DNA from: Croceicoccus sp.
GTDB lineage: Bacteria > Pseudomonadota > Alphaproteobacteria > Sphingomonadales > Sphingomonadaceae
Direction of reading: 5' to 3'
DNA: 64,000 nucleotides
Assembly: GCA_002694745.1 (NCBI GenBank)
Contig: NZMY01000017.1
Coordinates: 1-64,000 of the forward strand
Part shown: piece after piece, positions 1 to 14,221 of the stretch
Layout: each line of letters starts with the position of its first letter
How positions within the stretch are numbered: position 1 is the first letter of the stretch
Notes under the pieces: generated by a model
Seen by the model: the letters and a program-made list of their open reading frames with translations, nothing else
The model's database searches: none
What the model was told of the DNA's origin: nothing
Translations under genes and position numbers: made by a program

Positions 1-89
1 CTGCAGCAGGGCCGGTGTAGACACCCAGTTCCTAATTCAGATCAGAGGCTTATGCCACTCCCGCCAACCCTTCGTAGCCAACCCCGTGA

Positions 90-689
90 ATAAGACGGGA
101 TAGATACGTCGTCCCTCCGCAAGGGATCGTCGAGGTCATAGCTGCGGAAACCCTCGCTGTACCAAGAAATGTATCTGGGCTAGCGTCGATTAAAACTTCA
201 GTTTCCACGAACGGCATGCTCGCTCTTAACATTGGGATTATTGATCCTGGCTACCAAGGTCCAATGTCCAGCTTTCTGGTGAACTTCAGCAAGAATAATT
301 TTTTAATCGAGGCGGGCGATGTGTTCCTTCGATGCCAGTTTTTCAATTTATCGCAAGTAGAGGATTCAAGTCTTGGTGATCCTATTTCGTATAGGACTTA
401 TCTACAGGAGAAAAAACAGAAGGTGGCCGGAAGATTTGGAGACACTTTCCTTAATGTCGAAGATATTGTCTCGTCCGCTGCAAAAGGGTTGGTGTTTCGA
501 GGTTTAGGTTTCGTCGCAACTGTCGCGTTGATTATTACCTTTATGTCTTTTTTGCTGAACCTAGGGTTTTTTCGAGTGGCCGTAGACACAGATTCTCGGA
601 GAGACGAATATATTTCTCGGTACGAGGATGAAATACGAGAATTAGAGGCCAAGGTATCTCAACTTGAGGACAGGCTGAAAGATGAATAG
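90..689 (+). CDS. dUTPase/dCTP deaminase-like protein with C-terminal membrane helix and coiled coil; 5' end unresolved
   Basis: The frame reads YVVPPQG, AVPRNVSGLA, KTSVSTNG and GIIDPGYQGP, which is the order of conserved segments in the trimeric dUTPase/Dcd fold. Counted from the first ATG (216), a hydrophobic helix spans about residues 95-118 and a charged heptad-like stretch about 128-155. Homology starts upstream of that ATG, but there is no ATG, GTG or TTG between 90 and 216, and in-frame stops lie at 75-77 and 87-89. Frame 2 is open from 2 to 100, and removing one G near 97-99 would join the frames, so a frameshift is likely. The Asp of GIID is kept. By hand alignment, the position of the Dcd catalytic Glu holds Phe, so deamination is doubtful. 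GC is well below the rest of the window. The gene overlaps the next by 8 bases, suggesting coupled translation. Confidence 0.6.
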   Translation: MRRDRYVVPPQGIVEVIAAETLAVPRNVSGLASIKTSVSTNGMLALNIGIIDPGYQGPMSSFLVNFSKNNFLIEAGDVFLRCQFFNLSQVEDSSLGDPISYRTYLQEKKQKVAGRFGDTFLNVEDIVSSAAKGLVFRGLGFVATVALIITFMSFLLNLGFFRVAVDTDSRRDEYISRYEDEIRELEAKVSQLEDRLKDE

Positions 690-1527
690 TTTCCTAAAGT
701 TTGATTCATCTGATGATGTTGTCAAATGGGCTTTTGAAATGTGTAGAGATGAAGGAGAAAAAGTTTCTCCTAGGGGTATGCTTACTTATGAGGTGCCGGT
801 CGTCGGCTTCGAGTTAACCTCTCCGAGAAAAAGAAAGATAAGCTGGTCCAAGAGAGGCTGGTCTTCGGGCTTGGGTGCGGCTGAAGCTGCTTGGCATTTA
901 TCCGGGTCAAGAGACGTGGATATCTTAGCCCACTATGCGAAAAGCTGGAAAAAATACAGTGACGATGGCCTTCGTGTAAATGGAAGTTGTTATGGTGCTA
1001 AGATATTTTCGGGGGGAGAGAACTCGCAATGGGAAGTGGCAAAACAAATATTAAAAAATGATTTAGACAGTCGTCGATCTGTGATCGTAACAGATGCGAC
1101 AGTATCCAGTGATTTATATACTCTCGATAAATCATGCCTAACAAGCATGCAATTCTTGGTAAGGGACGGGAGGCTTCATGCTGTGGTGAACATGAGGAGT
1201 AATGATGTTTACCTAGGTTTACCATATGACATATTTCTATTTACAATATTTCAAGAGCGGATGGCCTTTGAACTTGACATCTCTCTTGGTAGTTATTTTC
1301 ATATTGCTAGCTCTTTTCATTTATACGACCGAGATCTTGAGAGGGTAAACCGCAAAGGTGGTTTCGGTTCTTCTTATACTCAGGAAATGGCAACTCTCGA
1401 TTTTAATGAGGTAAATAACTTTATTGCTGCTGAGGTTGCGTTTCGAAAATCCGGCGCTTGGTTGGGTAATGTAAGCTCCGGCTGGGAGGAGCTTGTTGCT
1501 GATCTCCGCAACTTCGCTAATAAGTAG
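682..1527 (+). CDS. Thymidylate synthase-family protein with dCMP-type Asp (putative dCMP methylase/hydroxymethylase)
   Basis: This 281-residue protein follows the thymidylate synthase fold. It has an EAAWHLSG segment (Glu68), a YG motif near 104-105, SRR at 130-132, the nucleophile region SCLTSMQF (Cys152), the phosphate and base loop RSNDVYLGLPYD (Arg172, Ser173, Asp175) and HLY (His213, Tyr215). The residue equivalent to E. coli ThyA Asn177, which reads uracil, is Asp183. In phage dCMP hydroxymethylases the same position is Asp and selects cytosine. The last 60 residues do not resemble the folate-closing ThyA C-terminus. The start overlaps the preceding dUTPase-like gene by 8 bases, so the pair probably forms one unit acting on deoxypyrimidine nucleotides. 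The family is clear; substrate and biological role (defence, DNA modification or salvage) are inferred. GC is low, which suggests transfer. Confidence 0.75.
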   Translation: MNSFLKFDSSDDVVKWAFEMCRDEGEKVSPRGMLTYEVPVVGFELTSPRKRKISWSKRGWSSGLGAAEAAWHLSGSRDVDILAHYAKSWKKYSDDGLRVNGSCYGAKIFSGGENSQWEVAKQILKNDLDSRRSVIVTDATVSSDLYTLDKSCLTSMQFLVRDGRLHAVVNMRSNDVYLGLPYDIFLFTIFQERMAFELDISLGSYFHIASSFHLYDRDLERVNRKGGFGSSYTQEMATLDFNEVNNFIAAEVAFRKSGAWLGNVSSGWEELVADLRNFANK

Positions 1528-1608
1528 AATGAAGTTTTATTGTCCTACACACCCCGACCTGTATAACTAACCCGGTTCCCTCAACCCTCGCACAGAGAGG
1601 AACCGGCC

Positions 1609-1815
1609 ATGCCCCTTGAAATCCCCGCACCATCCGACCGCGATACCATCGATCACGCCCGCCGATGGCGCGCGCATGTCGAGGCTGGGCGGATCGGGAC
1701 CGGAACGCCTTCCACCGCCGAGATAGCGCTCCAGCACCTCTATAACGAGGAAGTGCTGTGGGGCAGGGCGCGGACCTTTGCATATCCTGCGCCGCGGCGG
1801 TCGCGCTGGCCGTGA
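1609..1815 (+). CDS. Small hypothetical protein
   Basis: I do not recognise this 68-residue protein. It starts with ATG preceded by a good ribosome-binding site (GAGAGG). The first 50 residues look like a normal soluble alpha-helical protein, with a stretch containing DTIDHARRWRAHVEAG. The last dozen residues are rich in Arg and Pro. GC returns to the chromosomal level here, so the boundary of the low-GC block lies between 1527 and 1609. It is followed by the helix-turn-helix gene on the same strand. A long antisense frame covers the same stretch but has only shadow-like composition. Confidence 0.5.
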   Translation: MPLEIPAPSDRDTIDHARRWRAHVEAGRIGTGTPSTAEIALQHLYNEEVLWGRARTFAYPAPRRSRWP

Positions 1816-7098: not shown

Positions 7099-8337
7099 CT
7101 ATCGTTCCGTTTCCTGACGCAGCCATTGCAGCATGCGGGCATCGCGTCTTGCGGCCTCTCGCAATGAGGGGTTGGTCATCGAGGCGAGATAATCCCGCCC
7201 TCGCTGCAGCACCCATCGCGGATAGCCGGTCCATCGCAGCCGATCCTGCGCGCTAGTGCTGGCAAGCTCGGCCAGTTTTTGCGGGGTAGGGTGAATGGCT
7301 TTCTGCAGCGCGCCGAGCGGTCCCGAGCCGGCATTCCCCGTTTCGAGCCGGCGCATCATCGCCCGCTGGTCGGCCTCTGCGGGAACCTGGAACATGGCCT
7401 GCAGCGCATCGGGAACAAAGCGTCCCGCGCGGTCCACGTCCGGCCTGATTTCCGCAGGAATGTCGATCTGCCCGGCTTCCCTTGCCAAGGCGAGCAGCAG
7501 ATCGAGCGAGCGTCTGAGTTCCAGCCTGTCTGCGACCTTCACCGCGGCCTTCTGGTCGAGGTCGGGATGGCGCCACAACCGATGGATATCCGCAATCGTG
7601 AGCGGGCCATTGTCAAAGCAATTGTGCAAGGTCGCATGAACCGTCAGGTGCAGCAGGTTGGGCAGGGGGGCTGCATAGGCGATGGGGTGGCCGGAACTCG
7701 TGACCGGGCAAGCCGTGCCGAGCAGCATCGCGGTCAGCTCGGAATCTCCGGCCCAATGCCTTGAAAAGACCCGGTGATGAATTTCAACCGTGACCCCGTG
7801 CTGCTCGCACACGATCTCGGGCAATTGGTGGTTGTATTCGGTGCCATAGCTCTTCGCCCATGGCGCAGGCGCGAACCCGTTGACCAGCAGCCATTCGCGC
7901 GCCTCGACGGCCCGCTCCGCCGGGACCAGTATGTCGAGATCGCGCAGCGGACGCATCGCGGGCTGATCATAGAGCGAATAGGCGAGCGCGGAACCTTTCA
8001 GGGCCACATGCTCAATGCCCTTGTCGTCCAGCAGGGCTGCGATGCGGCCCAGAACCAGCTTTTGTTCAAGCGCATAGATGGACTGCCGCCGATAGAGATC
8101 GGTCAACCGCAACGCGGTATGCTGCGGTACCGCGACAGTGCTGGCGCGGAGATGGCGGTGCAGCAAATTGGCCGTGCGCGTCCGGACGGCAATCGCCTCG
8201 ATCGCGGTCCATCCTGCGTCGTCCAAGGCCGCAAATTGCCCGTCATCAGGCTCGCTACCGCCGCAGATTTTCAAAAGGATCAGTTCGGCAAGTTCGTGGC
8301 GGGGTACGCGAAAGGTCCAGTCGTCGGCCTTATGCAT
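7099..8337 (-). CDS. Nucleotidyltransferase-family protein of the lasso-peptide cluster
   Basis: The 412-residue protein matches the large uncharacterised nucleotidyltransferase family (NTP_transf_5 type) often found in RiPP and polysaccharide clusters. The active-site region reads ALKGSALAYSLYDQPAMRPLRDLDILV, with the Lys-Gly and paired Asp of the fold near residues 107-130. A second region, VTVEIHHRVF, follows. Its ATG overlaps the end of the macrocyclase gene by 8 bases, so it belongs to the lasso operon. Related genes occur in paeninodin-like clusters, where they may further tailor the phosphorylated peptide; the exact reaction is not established. Confidence 0.8.
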   Translation of the reverse strand: MHKADDWTFRVPRHELAELILLKICGGSEPDDGQFAALDDAGWTAIEAIAVRTRTANLLHRHLRASTVAVPQHTALRLTDLYRRQSIYALEQKLVLGRIAALLDDKGIEHVALKGSALAYSLYDQPAMRPLRDLDILVPAERAVEAREWLLVNGFAPAPWAKSYGTEYNHQLPEIVCEQHGVTVEIHHRVFSRHWAGDSELTAMLLGTACPVTSSGHPIAYAAPLPNLLHLTVHATLHNCFDNGPLTIADIHRLWRHPDLDQKAAVKVADRLELRRSLDLLLALAREAGQIDIPAEIRPDVDRAGRFVPDALQAMFQVPAEADQRAMMRRLETGNAGSGPLGALQKAIHPTPQKLAELASTSAQDRLRWTGYPRWVLQRGRDYLASMTNPSLREAARRDARMLQWLRQETER

Positions 8338-10290
8338 TGCCGCGTTCCTGAAACTTCACGAAGCGCGCGGCGGTAAGGCCGCGGCCCACGGCGCAGAAGA
8401 TGCGCGCGGCTTCCAGACCGCCGACGGAGTTGCCCCCCGACCATTCGCGCATCCAATTCTTGAGCCGAGGCAAATCGAGCATCTCGGCAATGTCCGCATC
8501 GTCTTCCAGCCGGTCAAGCTCGGCCATGATCGCGTCGCGTTCCTTCGACCAGCGCAGCGGCCAGTCGCTGCTCTGGATGCCGAGGCGCGTTTCGCATCGC
8601 ACCTCCTCGGGCACGCGGCCCTTCAAAACGCGCCTTGCAAGCCAGCGGGTCTGCCCGTTCCGCAAATATTGTTCGTCGGGAATGCCCGCCGCCAGCTCGA
8701 AGAGCGGCCGATAGGCAAGCGGCGAGCGTTTCGGAACACCGTGCAGCAACTCAAGCGCCAGGGCCAGATCGGCACCGTCGCCGGAGGATCCGGCAATGAC
8801 GGCCGCCCGCCATTCGCGCGCATCGCTTCGGTCAAGGAACAGCGGATCGTGTCCCATCGCTCTTCCGCGGGCGAGCACTCCGCTCCGCTCGGCATAATCG
8901 GAGCGCAGGGGGCACCAGCTCTCGAAGGGGTCGAGAGCCCGACCTCGCGCTCGCCGCAGTCTTGCGCGAAGCGTCAGCGACAATTGCGGCATGACGGCCT
9001 GGCTGATGAAGCGCCGAAAGTCCGATCCTTTCCCGCCCCGAGCCGAAACCTCGCGCCATGCAAGGCCCGCCCTGCCTTGCCGCAGCCAACTGGCGGGACC
9101 GGTCAGACCGTCATAGCTGAACCGCTATTGCCGAAATCGCCGTCGAGGACGACATCGCAGCCCGTGCGCGATGCGCGCCGCAGGATTTCGTGCCCCCAAT
9201 GCAGATTGCCTGCGCCCATGGGGGCAAGGCCGGCCAGAAGGAACAGCTTGTCCTCTTCGTCCGACAAGGGCGCCGATCCCGTGTCGACAAGCTCGAGGTC
9301 GATGCGCGGATGCATGGCCGCAAATGCCTCTGCATTGGCTGCCTCATTGCCGTGGGCATTGGGCCAGTCCAGCGCCTCGAAACCCTCTTGCGGGACCCAG
9401 CAATAGGCCTTGAGCGGGCTGTCCGGGGGCAGGGCATCCAGCGCGAAGCTCGCGACAGCCTGCGAATCCAGTCCGCCGGACAACTCGGTGGCCACCTTGC
9501 CGAAACCGCGCAAGGTCTCGCGCGAGCCATGCGCCATCGCCGTTTCGACCGCTTCGACATAGTCCGCGTCTTTCGCGAAACGGACTTCGGGGAGCGAGAA
9601 TATATCCCAGAAGCGGCGGCGGCTGAGGCCGGACCGATCGAGATGAACCACCTCGCCGGTCGCCACGCGTTCGATATCCCGAAACCAGCCGCGCCTGCTG
9701 TCGCCGAAGTTCAGATAGAGGGCGTCTGCCATTTGCGTCCGGTCGACGCGATCGCTTGCGCCCGCGGCAATCGCGGCCCGAGACGTCGATGCCGCGACGA
9801 TACGCCCGGAATCGCGCCACAGGTGAAGAGGCGGCGCAGCCAGCGCCGAACGGGCAAGCCGCAGCCGATGCTCATCGGGGTAATAGGCAATGGCGGCGTA
9901 ACGCCCGCTCAGCCGGCGGTCGCAATCGTCACCGAACTGCGTTAGGGCCGCGGCATAGATCGCATCGTCGCCCTGGCCGGCAGGCCTTTCGGGCAGATTT
10001 GCCAGGATAGCATCCCGGTCATGCAGTTCACCGGCAAACAGGACATAGGCGCCATCGGCACCGCGATGCGGCGTCCAGGGCGGTTTGCGTGCCCCCAGGC
10101 GAGGGGGCGGCGCATCTCGCAAGGCGGCACGGGTGAATAGCAGGCCGCAGTCGACCCGTGCCGATCCGACAGGTCCGCCTTGCCCAAGCCCCAGCGAATT
10201 GGCGATCCTGCCCCGTAGAGCAACGTCCGCACCCCCGCACCAGCTTCCATCGCCCAGGTCGATCGCGGCGGCGACAAGCAGCGAACCCAT
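8330..10290 (-). pseudogene. Lasso peptide macrocyclase (asparagine synthetase-like), interrupted by an apparent 1-base frameshift
   Basis: Reading from the ATG at 10290 (ribosome-binding site GAGGGA), the N-terminal half resembles the glutaminase-like domain without a catalytic Cys. The synthetase domain has the ATP pyrophosphatase loop ELSGGLDSQAVASFALD and VVLDGDFGNSG. The frame then ends at a TGA at 9103. In the next frame the expected continuation starts at once: SYDGLTGPASWLRQGRAG, then DPFESWCPL and IPDEQYLRNGQTRWLARRVL, to 8330. One missing T in GGTTCAGC near 9121 would give GNSGFSYDG and a normal cyclase of about 653 residues. It is therefore either a sequencing error or a recent inactivation. 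The protein would form the macrolactam using ATP. It overlaps the nucleotidyltransferase gene by 8 bases. Confidence 0.85.
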
Positions 10291-10295
10291 CGAAA

Positions 10296-10763
10296 TTATC
10301 CCTCGGCGCGGGGGACTTGCCCAACCGCTGCATTCGAGAAAGTCATCAACGGGCGGTACAGGCGGCGATCGCAATGGCCGAGGATGATGTCTCCCCCGAC
10401 TTCGACCCACGCGTGATATTCGTCCATCGCGGCATCCGATCCCCGGTAGACCGCGATGATCAGCCGCGCTTCGATATTCCGCCTTCGCAGCATCCACTGC
10501 AAGGCGACCGCGCGCGGAAGACATTTGGTATGGAAGGGCAGGCGTCCTGCCGCTCGCTCCACCTGTCTGGCCAATCGGCGCGACAGGCCGAGGTTCTCAG
10601 TCGTAGAGGCTGGTCCCATGACAGGCGGATCGACCGGTTTGACGATAGCGCCCAGAGTTCGGCGCCAATTCTTCATCGGGACATGGTTCACAAGTCCGCG
10701 AGCGATGGGCAAGAAAACCATCGCTTCGAGTGTCATCCGGCGGGAGGCGCTCCGTGTGGTCAT
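10296..10763 (-). CDS. Lasso peptide leader protease (B2, transglutaminase-like)
   Basis: The 155-residue protein is the split B2 protease that removes the leader peptide. The Cys protease triad is visible as TKCLPRAVALQWMLRRRNI (Cys81), DEYHAWVE (His117) and the following GGD (Asp125). The ATG at 10763 is preceded by GTGAGGAC. The open frame reaches 10832 with a TTG, which would overlap B1, but family members begin near the LEAMVFLPIARG segment seen at residues 12-22. It lies 5 bases before the macrocyclase start and acts with B1, which presents the leader. Confidence 0.9.
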   Translation of the reverse strand: MTTRSASRRMTLEAMVFLPIARGLVNHVPMKNWRRTLGAIVKPVDPPVMGPASTTENLGLSRRLARQVERAAGRLPFHTKCLPRAVALQWMLRRRNIEARLIIAVYRGSDAAMDEYHAWVEVGGDIILGHCDRRLYRPLMTFSNAAVGQVPRAEG

Positions 10764-10825
10764 CGCGCCGTCCTCACGCCTTTGCGCTATCCTCGACGGA
10801 TCTGCCGCAAAGAACATATAATCGA

Positions 10826-11098
10826 TCAGCAATATCGGGCGAATCCGGCATTGACGAGACTTTCGGCAAATCGCGCGACCCCTTCGCGTGCTTCCGTCGG
10901 CTCCACCTCATACTCGGAGCAAAGCTTTTCCGAAATGGCTTCCAGATCATCATCGCTATCGAGCAGTGTCCAGATGCGCAGTGCGACATCCTTGAGCGCG
11001 AAAAAACGCCCCGTATCGATATCGATCAGCATAAGCTCGTCATCGACGGGGCTCGCTTCGTATCGTTCGGTGATCTTCGAAAGTTTTTTCAGCGGCAT
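10826..11098 (-). CDS. Lasso peptide RRE protein (B1, PqqD-like)
   Basis: This 90-residue PqqD-fold protein is the RiPP recognition element that binds the precursor leader and hands it to B2 and the cyclase. The diagnostic pattern is DDELMLIDIDTGRFFALKDVALRIWTLLDS, followed by a helical C-terminal segment ending GFARYC. The ATG at 11098 is the best start; the frame is open to a TTG at 11134. No strong ribosome-binding site is visible for either. B1 and B2 are separate genes here, as in most proteobacterial and firmicute lasso clusters outside the microcin J25 type. Confidence 0.88.
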   Translation of the reverse strand: MPLKKLSKITERYEASPVDDELMLIDIDTGRFFALKDVALRIWTLLDSDDDLEAISEKLCSEYEVEPTEAREGVARFAESLVNAGFARYC

Positions 11099-11245
11099 GT
11101 CACGACATATGCCGAAACCTAAGCCGCAAAGCAAAGCCTATGCAAAGCAACGGTAAGTGCTGACAATTTATCAGACGCGCAAATTTGTAGACAATGCTTT
11201 TGCTAGCGACTGACCCAAATATAGGGCTTCAACGCAGCGCATACG

Positions 11246-11269
11246 AAAACCCCGGCCAGAAAGCCGGGG
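11246..11269 (-). terminator. Terminator between lasso precursor and processing genes
   Basis: A 7-bp GC stem (11250-11256 with 11263-11269) is followed on the minus strand by TTTT. It lies 29 bases after the precursor stop. Partial termination here would make precursor mRNA more abundant than mRNA for the enzymes, an arrangement common in RiPP operons. Confidence 0.7.
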
Positions 11270-11297
11270 CGCGCATGATACTAATAAAGGCTCGGCG

Positions 11298-11429
11298 TCA
11301 GGAATTACGCGACAAGTTGTTCTTCCCGCTACCGTCCACGTAGTAGTTGTTGCCCGACGCGACCGAAGACAGGTCGACGTCCAGCGCTTCCAGCTTGGGT
11401 TCGCTCCAAAGGGCTTTCGACTGTTTCAT
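11298..11429 (-). CDS. Lasso peptide precursor
   Basis: A 43-residue peptide starts at the ATG at 11429, with AGGA about a dozen bases upstream; the frame is open to a TTG at 11507. The leader contains LWSEPKLEALDVDL, fitting the aromatic-xxPxLxxL motif (Trp8, Pro11, Leu13, Leu16) read by lasso RRE proteins. The only acidic residue in the core region is Asp32. If the core starts at Ala24, Asp32 is residue 9 and Ser22 is at -2, giving a nine-residue ring and a 20-residue core. If it starts at Gly26, the ring has seven residues. The last residue is Ser43, the site type phosphorylated by lasso-cluster HprK-like kinases, one of which is the next gene upstream. Confidence 0.85.
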   Translation of the reverse strand: MKQSKALWSEPKLEALDVDLSSVASGNNYYVDGSGKNNLSRNS

Positions 11430-11511
11430 AATTGTCTGGCGTCCTGCATTGTCCGCGTCTGATACTGAGGTCTTATACACCATTTCGCGTAATTCGCAAA
11501 TGCACAATTTC

Positions 11512-12366
11512 TCAGAGACGGCTGAGTTGATCCACGATCCTCGGCAGATCCGATTCGAAACTGCCCCGATCTCTACGTCTATTCAACGTCCACACCCGCA
11601 GCCCTGTTCCCAATGACATCAGATCGCGCCGATAACGCGCTTCGTCCTGCAGCGCGATCGCGATTTCGATGCGGTACATCGCTTTGACAATACACGGCAA
11701 TTTGGATGCTCCCGTGCACGGCTCCAGCATCGGTTCATCGCGATCCCAGGTTTGGAGGACGATAAGGTCCGTCAGGGGCAAGGGCTGCCCGCCTTTCGTC
11801 TCCAGGTCAGACTTTTCCGCCTCCAGAAGCTCGGCAAAATACTTGGCCGCGCCCGGTTCGATGGGCGAAAGCGCACGCGCGCCCGTCATTGCAAACGCGT
11901 CCTCGCATAATTTGATGCGGTTCCGGTCCGGCCAGGCAAGTATGCCATCATCGGCGAATTGAAGCAGCAAGACATCATCCGACCTGTGAGCAAAGCCATA
12001 TCGCCCCAAGGCTGCGGCCAGCGTGGATTTGCCTTCGCCCGAATCGCCGGTAAACGCGACGATCCTGCCTCCCATGACCACGCTGCTGGCGTGAAGCGGC
12101 ACCAGCCCGTTCAGCCATGCGACCGCGCCATAGACGGTGCCGTTGTAGAAAAGATCGGTTTCCTCGGTCGAACCGTCATCGCCCTGCGCAATCGCGATGC
12201 CCTTGCCCCTGGCATAATGGAAACGCGTGCCTCGCGGCGTGGTGAACAGGAATGCGTCACGGTTCAATTGCATGACGGGCCATTCCATCACGCAATGCTC
12301 CAGCCGATCGGGCAGCGTGCGCGCCTCGATGCGCATTTCCTCACGGATGATGGCGGGAAAGCTCAT
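11512..12366 (-). CDS. HprK-like lasso peptide kinase
   Basis: The 284-residue protein has an HPr kinase-like C-terminal core: LHASSVV, then the P-loop GDSGEGKST (residues 107-115), followed by RSDDVLLL, equivalent to the Asp-Asp of the HprK fold. Kinases of this type in lasso clusters phosphorylate the C-terminal Ser of the precursor. The precursor directly downstream indeed ends in Ser. The start at the ATG at 12366 is chosen because the frame upstream (to a GTG at 12462) runs into recJ. It is the first gene of the minus-strand lasso unit, 82 bases before the precursor. Confidence 0.85.
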   Translation of the reverse strand: MSFPAIIREEMRIEARTLPDRLEHCVMEWPVMQLNRDAFLFTTPRGTRFHYARGKGIAIAQGDDGSTEETDLFYNGTVYGAVAWLNGLVPLHASSVVMGGRIVAFTGDSGEGKSTLAAALGRYGFAHRSDDVLLLQFADDGILAWPDRNRIKLCEDAFAMTGARALSPIEPGAAKYFAELLEAEKSDLETKGGQPLPLTDLIVLQTWDRDEPMLEPCTGASKLPCIVKAMYRIEIAIALQDEARYRRDLMSLGTGLRVWTLNRRRDRGSFESDLPRIVDQLSRL

Positions 12367-12412
12367 GCTTCCGGGTTCTACTGCGCCGGATGCGAATCGC
12401 CAGCAATTGGTC

Positions 12413-14221
12413 TCAATCCGCGAACGCCGCGTCTTCCAAAAGCAATTCGGCGACCGGAACACTACCCCAGTCGTCGATCTTGGCCCGTCCGGCCAGCCAC
12501 AACTTCCGCCCGCGCGATCCGTGGAGCAAGGCTTGGCCCAGATCGCTTTCCTCGGCCCGAAAGGCGATGGCCTTGAACCGCGCGCCGTCCTGTCCGGCCG
12601 CGATCAGGCGCACGTGCCCCTGTCCGACGACATCCGCCTTGATAAGCGACACCGGCCCGACCGCCACCCTCGGCGCCGGCCAGCCGACGCCATACGGCCC
12701 CGCGGCTTCCATCTGTTCGATCAGCTCGGCATGCAACCCGCGCGGCGCCAGCGAAAGGTCGAGCGTCAGCGCGCGCGACGCCATTGCCCGTTCGACATCG
12801 CGGCCAAGGCGCTCGTCCAGCCAGTCCCTGAACGCGTCAATCCGGCCTTCCTCGATCGTCAGGCCTGCTGCCATTGCATGCCCGCCGCCCTTGACCAGCA
12901 AGCCCGCATCACACGCGGCGATGACCGCTGCGCCAAGATCGACGCCCGTGACAGAGCGGCCCGATCCCTTGCCGACGAACGATCCGTCCTTAGCGTCCTC
13001 TTCCACGGCGATCACGAAGACCGGCTTGTTCGTCTTTTCCTTGATACGACCCGCGACGATACCGATCACGCCGGGATGCCAGCCGCGACCGGCCAGCACG
13101 AGCACCGACCGGTTATGCTGGCCCAGCAGCTGCGCTTCCGCGGCAAGCTGCACCTCTCCCTCGATCGCGCGGCGCTCTTCGTTGAGCCGGTCGAGCAGGG
13201 CGGAAATCTCGCGTGCCTCGGCAGTGTCTTCGGTCGTCAGGAGCCGGACCCCAAGGCTTGAATCCCCGATCCGTCCCGCTGCATTGATGCGCGGACCCAG
13301 GGCAAAGCCAAGGTCGCTCGCGTGCGGAGCGCGCTTAACCCGGCCGGCGTCCAAGAGCGCCGCGATCCCGACATTCTGTCGCCGCGCCATCACCTTGAGC
13401 CCCTGCGCGACGAACGCGCGGTTAAGGCCGTGTAGCGCCGCGACATCGGCCACCGTTCCCAGCGCCACGAGATCGAGCAGGCCCATCAGGTCGGGCTCTT
13501 GCCTTTCGACGAAATAGCCCTCGGCACGCAGCAGTCTCACCAGCGCGATGCCGAGAAGAAAGGCGACACCCACTGCCGCGAGGTGGCCATAGGATGCCGC
13601 CTCGTCGCTCGAATCCAGCCGGTTCGGGTTCACCAGCGCGGCCGCGCGGGGCAATTCGCTGGCGCATTTGTGGTGATCGACGACGATAACGTCCACCCCG
13701 GCATCCGCCGCCGCCGCCAGCGCGTCATGCGCCATCGCGCCGCAATCGACCGTGACGATCAGGCTGGATCCGCTTTCCGCCAGCTGGACAAGCGACTGGC
13801 CCGTCGGACCATAGCCTTCCAGCAGGCGATCCGGAATGTAATGGCCCGCCTCGACGCCCAGCTGGCGCAGCAGACGGATCAGAAGCGCCGCGCTGGTGGC
13901 GCCGTCGACGTCGTAGTCGCCATAGATCGTGATCGTCTCACCGCCCAGAACGGCCTGCGCAAGACGCTCGGCCGCGCCGTCCATATCGGCGAAGATCGAC
14001 GGATCGGGCAGAAACGCGCGCATGGTGGGCTGCATCTGGCGGTCGACGTCATCCTCCTGCACGCCGCGGGAAAGCAGCAATTGACGAAGCAGGCCCGCGC
14101 CGTCCGCCGCCATGCCAAGCGCCATGTTCCCGCCGCGCCATTGCCACGCCCGCCCTGAAAGCGAGGACGAGACATTGCAGACAAAGCCCTTGATATTGCG
14201 TTCGTCGATCCGGGAAGCCAT
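12413..14221 (-). CDS. recJ: Single-stranded-DNA-specific exonuclease RecJ
   Basis: The 602-residue DHH-superfamily 5'-3' exonuclease acts in recombination and mismatch repair. DHH motifs are IYGDYDVDGATSAALL, VDCGAMAHD and VVDHHKC; the DHHA1 region contains GPRINAAGRIGDSSLGV and GKGSGRSV followed by GGHAMAAG. The ATG at 14221 was chosen over a 102-codon Arg/Pro-rich upstream extension. It is transcribed toward the lasso kinase, 46 bases upstream of that gene, so read-through into the cluster is possible. Confidence 0.95.
   Translation of the reverse strand: MASRIDERNIKGFVCNVSSSLSGRAWQWRGGNMALGMAADGAGLLRQLLLSRGVQEDDVDRQMQPTMRAFLPDPSIFADMDGAAERLAQAVLGGETITIYGDYDVDGATSAALLIRLLRQLGVEAGHYIPDRLLEGYGPTGQSLVQLAESGSSLIVTVDCGAMAHDALAAAADAGVDVIVVDHHKCASELPRAAALVNPNRLDSSDEAASYGHLAAVGVAFLLGIALVRLLRAEGYFVERQEPDLMGLLDLVALGTVADVAALHGLNRAFVAQGLKVMARRQNVGIAALLDAGRVKRAPHASDLGFALGPRINAAGRIGDSSLGVRLLTTEDTAEAREISALLDRLNEERRAIEGEVQLAAEAQLLGQHNRSVLVLAGRGWHPGVIGIVAGRIKEKTNKPVFVIAVEEDAKDGSFVGKGSGRSVTGVDLGAAVIAACDAGLLVKGGGHAMAAGLTIEEGRIDAFRDWLDERLGRDVERAMASRALTLDLSLAPRGLHAELIEQMEAAGPYGVGWPAPRVAVGPVSLIKADVVGQGHVRLIAAGQDGARFKAIAFRAEESDLGQALLHGSRGRKLWLAGRAKIDDWGSVPVAELLLEDAAFAD

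Follow-up and report, generated by a model that had tools for sequence, protein, structure and literature searches.

Two described enzymes of the thymidylate synthase (TS) family stand closest to the enzyme considered here: the dCMP hydroxymethylase of phage T4 (gp42) and MilA, the mildiomycin CMP 5-hydroxymethylase. Excerpts from published work tie the T4 residues Asp179, Ser94, Tyr96, Asp145, Glu60, and Cys148 to dCMP hydroxymethylation (PMC6400193), MilA Asp186 to cytosine, and MilA Ala176/Lys133 to the ribose preference (PMC5175136). According to the same excerpts, this Asp marks cytosine users, and the D179N substitution in the T4 enzyme lowers kcat up to ~3600-fold (PMC5175136, PMC6400193). 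As to defence by nucleotide depletion, known from AvcID and dCTP deaminases, the abstract of PMC10511110 describes AvcD as a deoxycytidylate deaminase. Passages of the DefensePredictor study place a TS domain and a 5-hydroxymethyluracil kinase among newly validated defence domains and a dUTPase in a predicted system (PMC13092281).

The window analysed here, a 64,000-nucleotide stretch of a Croceicoccus sp. genome, corresponds to contig C45 of the assembly of this genome from base 1. It opens with what is left of a gene for a dUTPase/Dcd-fold protein with a predicted membrane helix, called Dcd-TM below, followed by a TS-family gene (Table 1). Unlike T4 gp42, this TS is bacterial and coupled to a gene for a membrane dUTPase-fold protein. 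In our reading, which we think has an even chance of being right, the locus is a copy, disrupted by an IS, of a recurring module of two to three genes, and the module diverts deoxycytidylate and acts as antiphage defence. This module resembles the systems of the DefensePredictor passages in domain names and may or may not be identical with one of them; for example, one distant relative, L128, pairs a Dcd-TM-like protein with HMUDK_hel. A literature search returned no title or abstract on the Dcd-TM pair, by which its absence from print is not claimed.

Table 1. Features at the beginning of the window (coordinates of the window)
Feature	Coordinates	Strand	Remarks
Insertion element end	1-99	-	Present in several copies in this genome; interrupts the Dcd-TM gene
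ATAG	100-103	no strand	Read as target-site duplication of the insertion element
Dcd-TM gene, 3′ part	104-689	+	dUTPase/Dcd-fold core, hydrophobic helix, coiled-coil-like tail
Most hydrophobic 19-residue segment	501-557	+	Mean Kyte-Doolittle 2.29; predicted membrane helix
TS-family gene, dCMP type	682-1527	+	Intact, 281 aa; predicted deoxycytidylate 5-hydroxymethylase
Ser102	985-987	+	T4 Ser94
Asp149	1126-1128	+	T4 Asp145
Cys152	1135-1137	+	Nucleophile position; T4 Cys148
Asp183	1228-1230	+	Cytosine-reading residue; T4 Asp179, MilA Asp186
Right flank also seen in genus relatives	1535-1815	+	Contains a small ORF (1609-1815); bounds on the right the interval starting at uvrA

The TS-family enzyme and its predicted substrate

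The initial annotation had assigned the second gene to the TS family, with Asp183 in place of the Asn that reads uracil, and proposed action on deoxycytidine nucleotides. The family assignment is confirmed by a Pfam thymidylate-synthase match (4.8e-19), and the predicted substrate, dCMP, is well supported by the residues. All 11 active-site residues of T4 dCMP hydroxymethylase that were checked are identical in the window TS and in seven homologues likewise linked to Dcd-TM (8/8). Ser102, Tyr104, and Asp149 (T4 Ser94, Tyr96, and Asp145) are kept in all eight linked enzymes, while the ThyA rows have P, Y, and L/V at these places; the positions of T4 Ser94, Asp145, and Asp179 are occupied by P, L/V, and N in 9/9 ThyA rows. 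The uracil-reading Asn (EcTS Asn177) is replaced by an invariant Asp in 8/8 linked TS and is present in 9/9 ThyA rows, which were obtained by picking 11 ORFs from 26 ThyA-search loci and dropping the mis-picks L030 and L037. The catalytic Cys and the conserved Glu of canonical ThyA (here Cys152 and Glu68) are also kept in all eight. Where MilA carries Ala176/Lys133 (ribo type), each of the linked TS has Ser173 and Arg131 (deoxy type); the MilA-type Ala/Lys occurs in a TS from a Streptomyces plasmid. The product is expected to be 5-hydroxymethyl-dCMP, and hydroxymethylation rather than methylation is predicted from the residues.

MilA is the closest solved relative both in sequence (9.6e-35 with the window TS, 2e-58 with a profile of eight sequences) and in fold: the AlphaFold2 model of the window TS (pLDDT 88) matches MilA best, with E 2.1e-23 and a query TM of 0.83, and the Asp for cytosine is common to both. 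T4 gp42 shares the TS fold (fold-match ranks 31, 33, and 49) at 20-22% identity in the fold alignment.

In the gene tree, the eight linked TS form one clade with support 99/98 when three long rows are left out (T4 gp42, one Geobacillus TS, and L124), and with support 1.0 in a FastTree tree of 117 tips. With T4 gp42 included, the T4 enzyme falls inside this clade, so that the eight are not exclusive; its branch is long (5.25) and its place unsure. By residues and tree, the linked homologues are not ThyA. None of the outcomes that the initial annotation had named as refuting (Asp183 not conserved, the pair not recurring, a homologue that is an ordinary ThyA) was observed. A second TS match of ordinary strength in this genome (G000:C11:97364) is taken as the housekeeping, ordinary ThyA. 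G459 and G416 were rejected as members of this TS type, since they carry Asn; of the three class-level TS matches at 1e-25, only that of the window qualifies.

Four phage TS were compared as well. The enzyme of phage ATCCB keeps 11/11 residues and adjoins an annotated beta-glucosyltransferase. That of phage AB434P2 keeps 10/11, including the Asp, and is annotated as a deoxyuridylate enzyme, which, as far as an annotation goes, counts against the main reading. Asp was also present in 80/80 viral TS (the best 80 of 129 confirmed stretches), a result rejected as evidence because one of the two search patterns itself contained Asp and the best 80 of 129 were kept.

A second type of module was seen on plasmids and chromosomes (L040, L042, L043, L045, L046, L047, L076, and L077). 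It consists of a TS with Asp, a gene of ~305-315 aa, and a convergent gene of the ImmA/IrrE type, identified by annotation or by resemblance. In L077 only, the ~305-315-aa gene is assigned by Pfam to aGPT-Pplase3/ADDT. The eight TS of this type carry Asp at the position of T4 179 but differ at that of Ser94. In Geobacillus and Streptococcus salivarius plasmids (L041, L178), a TS lies beside genes annotated as PqqD-family, QueA-type, and phosphotransferase, perhaps a nucleoside product cluster.

The interrupted Dcd-TM gene and its surroundings

The first gene had been annotated as starting at position 90, and this start had to be abandoned. The frame is open from 90, yet insertion element sequence extends up to ~104. 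Bases 1 to ~99-104 of the window match eight other places in the genome with 86-99% identity, and these places are copies of the end of an insertion element. Its full copy on contig C9 encodes a 456-aa transposase and is putatively of the IS1380 type. In the seven of the eight other copies that could be seen beyond the end, the common end GACGGG is followed by TTAG, TTAA, CTAG, or CTAA. On contig C9, CTAT, which is the ATAG of the window on the other strand, comes directly after the right end of the element. Since the window begins with an IS end and this duplication, the first ORF represents only the 3′ portion of a gene that has been split.

The 5′ part lies on contig C9 (2501-2623, minus strand) and adjoins uvrA; read from uvrA towards the element, this flank encodes a Dcd-TM-like N-terminus. 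In a profile of 17 Dcd-TM proteins, positions 1-41 match C9:2501-2623 and positions 41-243 match C45:93-683. In four of six loci from the genus (L159, L169, L170, and L171), uvrA ends 1.0-1.3 kb before the small ORF that begins at 1609 in the window, and Dcd-TM has no match in these four genomes; in the other two, L160 and L168, the retrieved flank did not include uvrA. The Sphingorhabdus pair (L095) likewise lies downstream of uvrA. Because the two halves of the profile abut and the uvrA synteny is found in genus relatives, contigs C9 and C45 very probably belong together, with the module in the interval downstream of uvrA. The Dcd-TM gene is thus broken by an insertion element in this genome, and, with this gene cut and only the TS gene intact, the pair probably does not work here.

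The full copy of the element on C9 (L062, 844-2498) has the site TTAG at its left flank and CTAT at its right. As these flanks do not match, either IS copies have recombined at this place or the assembly is chimeric.

Two further statements of the initial annotation were borne out. The genes overlap by 8 bases, with the TS start at 682 and the upstream stop codon at 687-689, and the GC content is low, 0.434 over 100-1530 vs a mean of 0.627 (sd 0.023, minimum 0.553) in 610 overlapping 1430-bp segments elsewhere in the window. Promoter and terminator scans gave results near chance.

Farther along, positions 1862-1978 and 2632-2746 belong to two families of dispersed repeats, both present many times in the genome. 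The first family is also found in genus relatives, and some of its copies form close inverted pairs. The region 7099-12462 has asparagine-synthase-like, B2-like, kinase-like, and nucleotidyltransferase-like ORFs, which together resemble a lasso-peptide cluster; the asparagine-synthase part seems to be split over two frames (9103-10524 and 8330-8992).

Recurrence of the pair and its genomic setting

A scan of genome contigs with three Dcd-TM rows confirmed 22 loci out of 167 stretches; scanning these contigs with the TS protein alone gave no match. Most of the records are named alphaproteobacteria, L091 being a Binatia MAG; several loci are cut by contig ends. Among the loci collected in the whole analysis, L108 duplicates L086, and L125 duplicates L089. 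As tblastn queries against all 22 loci we used 17 reference proteins, part of which come from the loci themselves. TS directly follows Dcd-TM in seven of them (L087, L088, L089, L091, L094, L095, and L101), the two genes overlapping by up to 4 bases or being separated by up to 13, so that the pair recurs besides the window. The commonest neighbour, present in 19/22 loci, is a divergent dCMP deaminase; an earlier survey by longest ORFs had missed deaminases that tblastn picked up. Four loci have both TS and deaminase, and every one of the 22 has at least one of the two. The deaminase form is also found on S. meliloti psymA (L039) and in G349 (L070). While deaminases likewise characterize AvcID and dCTP deaminase depletion defence, here, unlike AvcID, the deaminase is a lone ORF of ~155-190 aa beside a membrane dUTPase-fold protein. 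The trees of the two genes agree only in part: in that of Dcd, L101 groups with the window, but in that of TS it groups with L091, and the Dcd-TM proteins that have a TS partner do not form a single clade (2 changes).

No Dcd-TM was found in viral contigs by two peptide patterns, in the phage collection by P0001 and the prophage-type protein, or in E. coli genomes searched with the prophage-type DNA. At viral TS loci, Dcd-TM was seen in 0/80 (the best 80 of 129), the positive control giving 22/22, of which 16 were in the profile.

Concerning the setting, a C5-methyltransferase and/or Vsr was found in 9/22 Dcd-TM loci (248,697 bases) vs 0/60 control loci (239,273 bases; 25 from the Dcd-profile search, 27 from the ThyA search, and eight stretches of the own genome), a contrast that is rough because the control loci are each shorter. 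DruF- and DruM2-like genes accompany Vsr in L091, and L087 combines a C5-methyltransferase and Vsr with a weak Arm-DNA-binding match; L096 has a weak NotI-like match below Pfam's cut-off. Some relatives sit in plasmid and prophage settings. With a limit of E 1, neither window protein matched a PADLOC family, and the L095 Dcd-TM had no match either; two of the neighbouring dCMP deaminase homologues match the dCTPase model of PADLOC over the deaminase motif region. It had been supposed in the initial annotation that the pair could be a defence or a DNA-modification module. For the former there is only indirect support, from the restriction-type and Druantia-like neighbours, the plasmid and prophage settings, and the published system with a TS domain, whereas the latter received no direct support.

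The 11/11 T4 residues in 8/8 linked TS, the recurrence with TS or deaminase, and the C5-methyltransferase/Vsr setting are the grounds for the deoxycytidylate-diversion reading, according to which the TS would use methylene-THF to convert dCMP to 5-hydroxymethyl-dCMP. Dcd-TM would bind or hydrolyse a pyrimidine dNTP at the membrane and supply or sense the dCMP-level nucleotide. On phage infection, the module would then take usable deoxycytidylate out of the pool, much like depletion systems of the deaminase type, and an antiphage role is probable. Simple depletion leaves the membrane binding of Dcd-TM unexplained, which speaks against this reading.

The same genes could make an ordinary supply route, since dUTPase, dCMP deaminase, and TS catalyse steps on the way from dCTP or dCMP to dTMP; the module would then be a horizontally acquired dTMP pathway. 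The steps do match, and the deaminases keep HAE and PCxxC in 8/8 checked. Still, we hold this to be very unlikely: the uracil-reading position carries in 8/8 linked TS the Asp that, according to the excerpts cited above, belongs to cytosine users and whose replacement by Asn costs the T4 enzyme up to ~3600-fold in kcat. Besides, a second, ThyA-like gene exists in the same genome, and Dcd-TM is rare in relatives (2/148 genomes, the window's own included).

Hardly more probable is a role in DNA modification. As T-even phages do, the host or its mobile element would then phosphorylate 5-hydroxymethyl-dCMP and incorporate it into its DNA, and Dcd-TM would stand in for the T4 dCTPase. The full T4-type active site and the phage relative beside an annotated beta-glucosyltransferase would fit such a role, as would the pairing of genes, because T4 gp56 and gp42 combine a dNTP hydrolase with a dCMP hydroxymethylase in a similar way. 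However, none of the 22 loci matched the references for deoxynucleoside kinase (dNK) and 5-hmdU kinase, and the ORF lists of the seven TS loci, in which part of the ORFs were family-scanned, showed no evident kinase or glucosyltransferase. Moreover, the dCMP deaminase present in 19/22 loci would not bring about a DNA modification of this kind.

The Dcd-TM protein and its more distant relatives

The dUTPase/Dcd fold and membrane anchor proposed for the first protein agree with the Pfam DCD match (1.1e-06) and with the hydrophobic C-terminal segment predicted as a helix; the membrane location is thereby only presumed. In the 18 Dcd-TM members, the 19-residue segment of highest hydrophobicity follows the core, with means of 1.67-2.88; in nine ordinary Dcd rows (10 from 21 loci tried, the mis-pick L147 being dropped) the means are 0.92-1.77, so that the ranges touch. 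The model of the intact 255-aa homologue from L095 (pLDDT 85 but pTM 0.61) has a core whose best fold match is the Thermococcus pacificus dUTPase (8y1w, 3.4e-12), followed by predicted long helices, and the core fold is also shared with bifunctional DCD-DUT proteins; compared with these, Dcd-TM is extended by a hydrophobic helix and a tail, and the Glu of dCTP deaminases is missing. The Dcd-TM profile matches the 8y1w chain at 6e-20, the chain being named dCTP deaminase there. The 17-protein profile gave 87/398 phylum hits, with only G1043, G000, G1095, and G859 stronger than 1e-15; most of the weaker ones are open frames near 193-215 aa, like ordinary Dcd. G397 and G502 were rejected as Dcd-TM, as the longest-ORF view showed other genes.

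The catalytic residues of Dcd-TM bear on the main rival of deoxycytidylate diversion, a sensor-effector pair. It is possible, though we hold it to be less likely than the main reading, that the Dcd-fold domain is no longer catalytic and gates the membrane helix, the partner enzyme making or removing a nucleotide ligand; a change in the dNMP pool on infection would open or cluster the membrane protein, and the cell would be killed or stalled. The deaminase catalytic Glu138, present in 9/9 ordinary Dcd rows, is kept in 0/18 Dcd-TM, as is the Arg115 position, which is what such a loss of catalysis would look like, and the hydrophobic helix with the long C-terminal helix would suit an effector. 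However, the Thermococcus dUTPase, the closest fold, is also devoid of this Glu and is nevertheless titled a dUTPase. Since the Asp of the DP motif, presumably the catalytic Asp of dUTPase motif 3, and a basic-Thr pair are each kept in 18/18, Dcd-TM may well be catalytic. Both pore and ligand are purely putative.

A sensor-effector role is also favoured by the constancy of the Dcd-TM architecture beside changing enzymes (dCMP deaminase, TS, ThyX, PurA-like, dNK, HMUDK_hel, and DUF1643), most of which accompany more distant Dcd-TM-like proteins. These are grouped with the main clade by likeness, their common descent being putative. A hydrophobic helix was computed for L071, L074, L110, L111, L114, L119, L127, L128, and L129.

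ThyX lies beside three Dcd-TM-like genes (L071, L110, and L111), and its motif reads SQLSQQY in 3/3 vs SQLSQRY in the best-matching solved ThyX; it may have a changed substrate. In these ThyX, the Arg of the motif is replaced by Gln, and RHR is followed by one additional residue.

PurA-like synthetases are found beside L114, L115, L118, L119, and L129, as well as beside a Sinorhizobium medicae plasmid copy, with a dNK in addition in L129. Only the L129 synthetase was compared with solved chains; PurA or PurA-like entries of 339-367 aa come closest to it, and PurZ scores lower (2.2e-25). L155 is also among the PurA-like loci, where the Dcd-TM-like partners are larger. These purine neighbours count against the main reading, as a dC-only pathway does not explain them.

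In L128, a 196-aa protein lies upstream and HMUDK_hel, a 5-hmdU-kinase domain, downstream (1.1e-95); L074 and L112 have the same upstream family, with DUF1643 nearby. L127 adjoins a phage portal gene, and no partner was found for it; none of the partner references matched at L109, L113, L116, L117, or L156, and in L109 a SAM methyltransferase follows. The L156 protein, from an Acuticoccus plasmid, is annotated as a dCTP deaminase and weakly resembles the ThyX-type Dcd-TM (8e-6); its gene is followed by ImmA/IrrE, uracil-DNA glycosylase, and MazG genes.

These neighbours suggest a broader view, which we offer as a conjecture rather less likely to be right than wrong: Dcd-TM may be the constant membrane part of a modular family of nucleotide immunity, in which the partner acting on dNMPs is swapped (dCMP deaminase, dCMP hydroxymethylase, ThyX variant, PurA-like synthetase with or without dNK, 5-hmdU-kinase-domain protein, or DUF1643), while the dUTPase-fold domain reads the nucleotide of the partner and acts through the membrane.

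Gene sets suitable for testing deoxycytidylate diversion are available in L095, L087-L089, L091, L094, and L101. If the reading is true, T4-type dCMP hydroxymethylases would exist in bacteria as accessory genes, linked to a membrane protein of the dUTPase fold whose relatives have other nucleotide enzymes for neighbours, and nucleotide-based defence would extend from destroying dNTPs to remodelling dNMPs.
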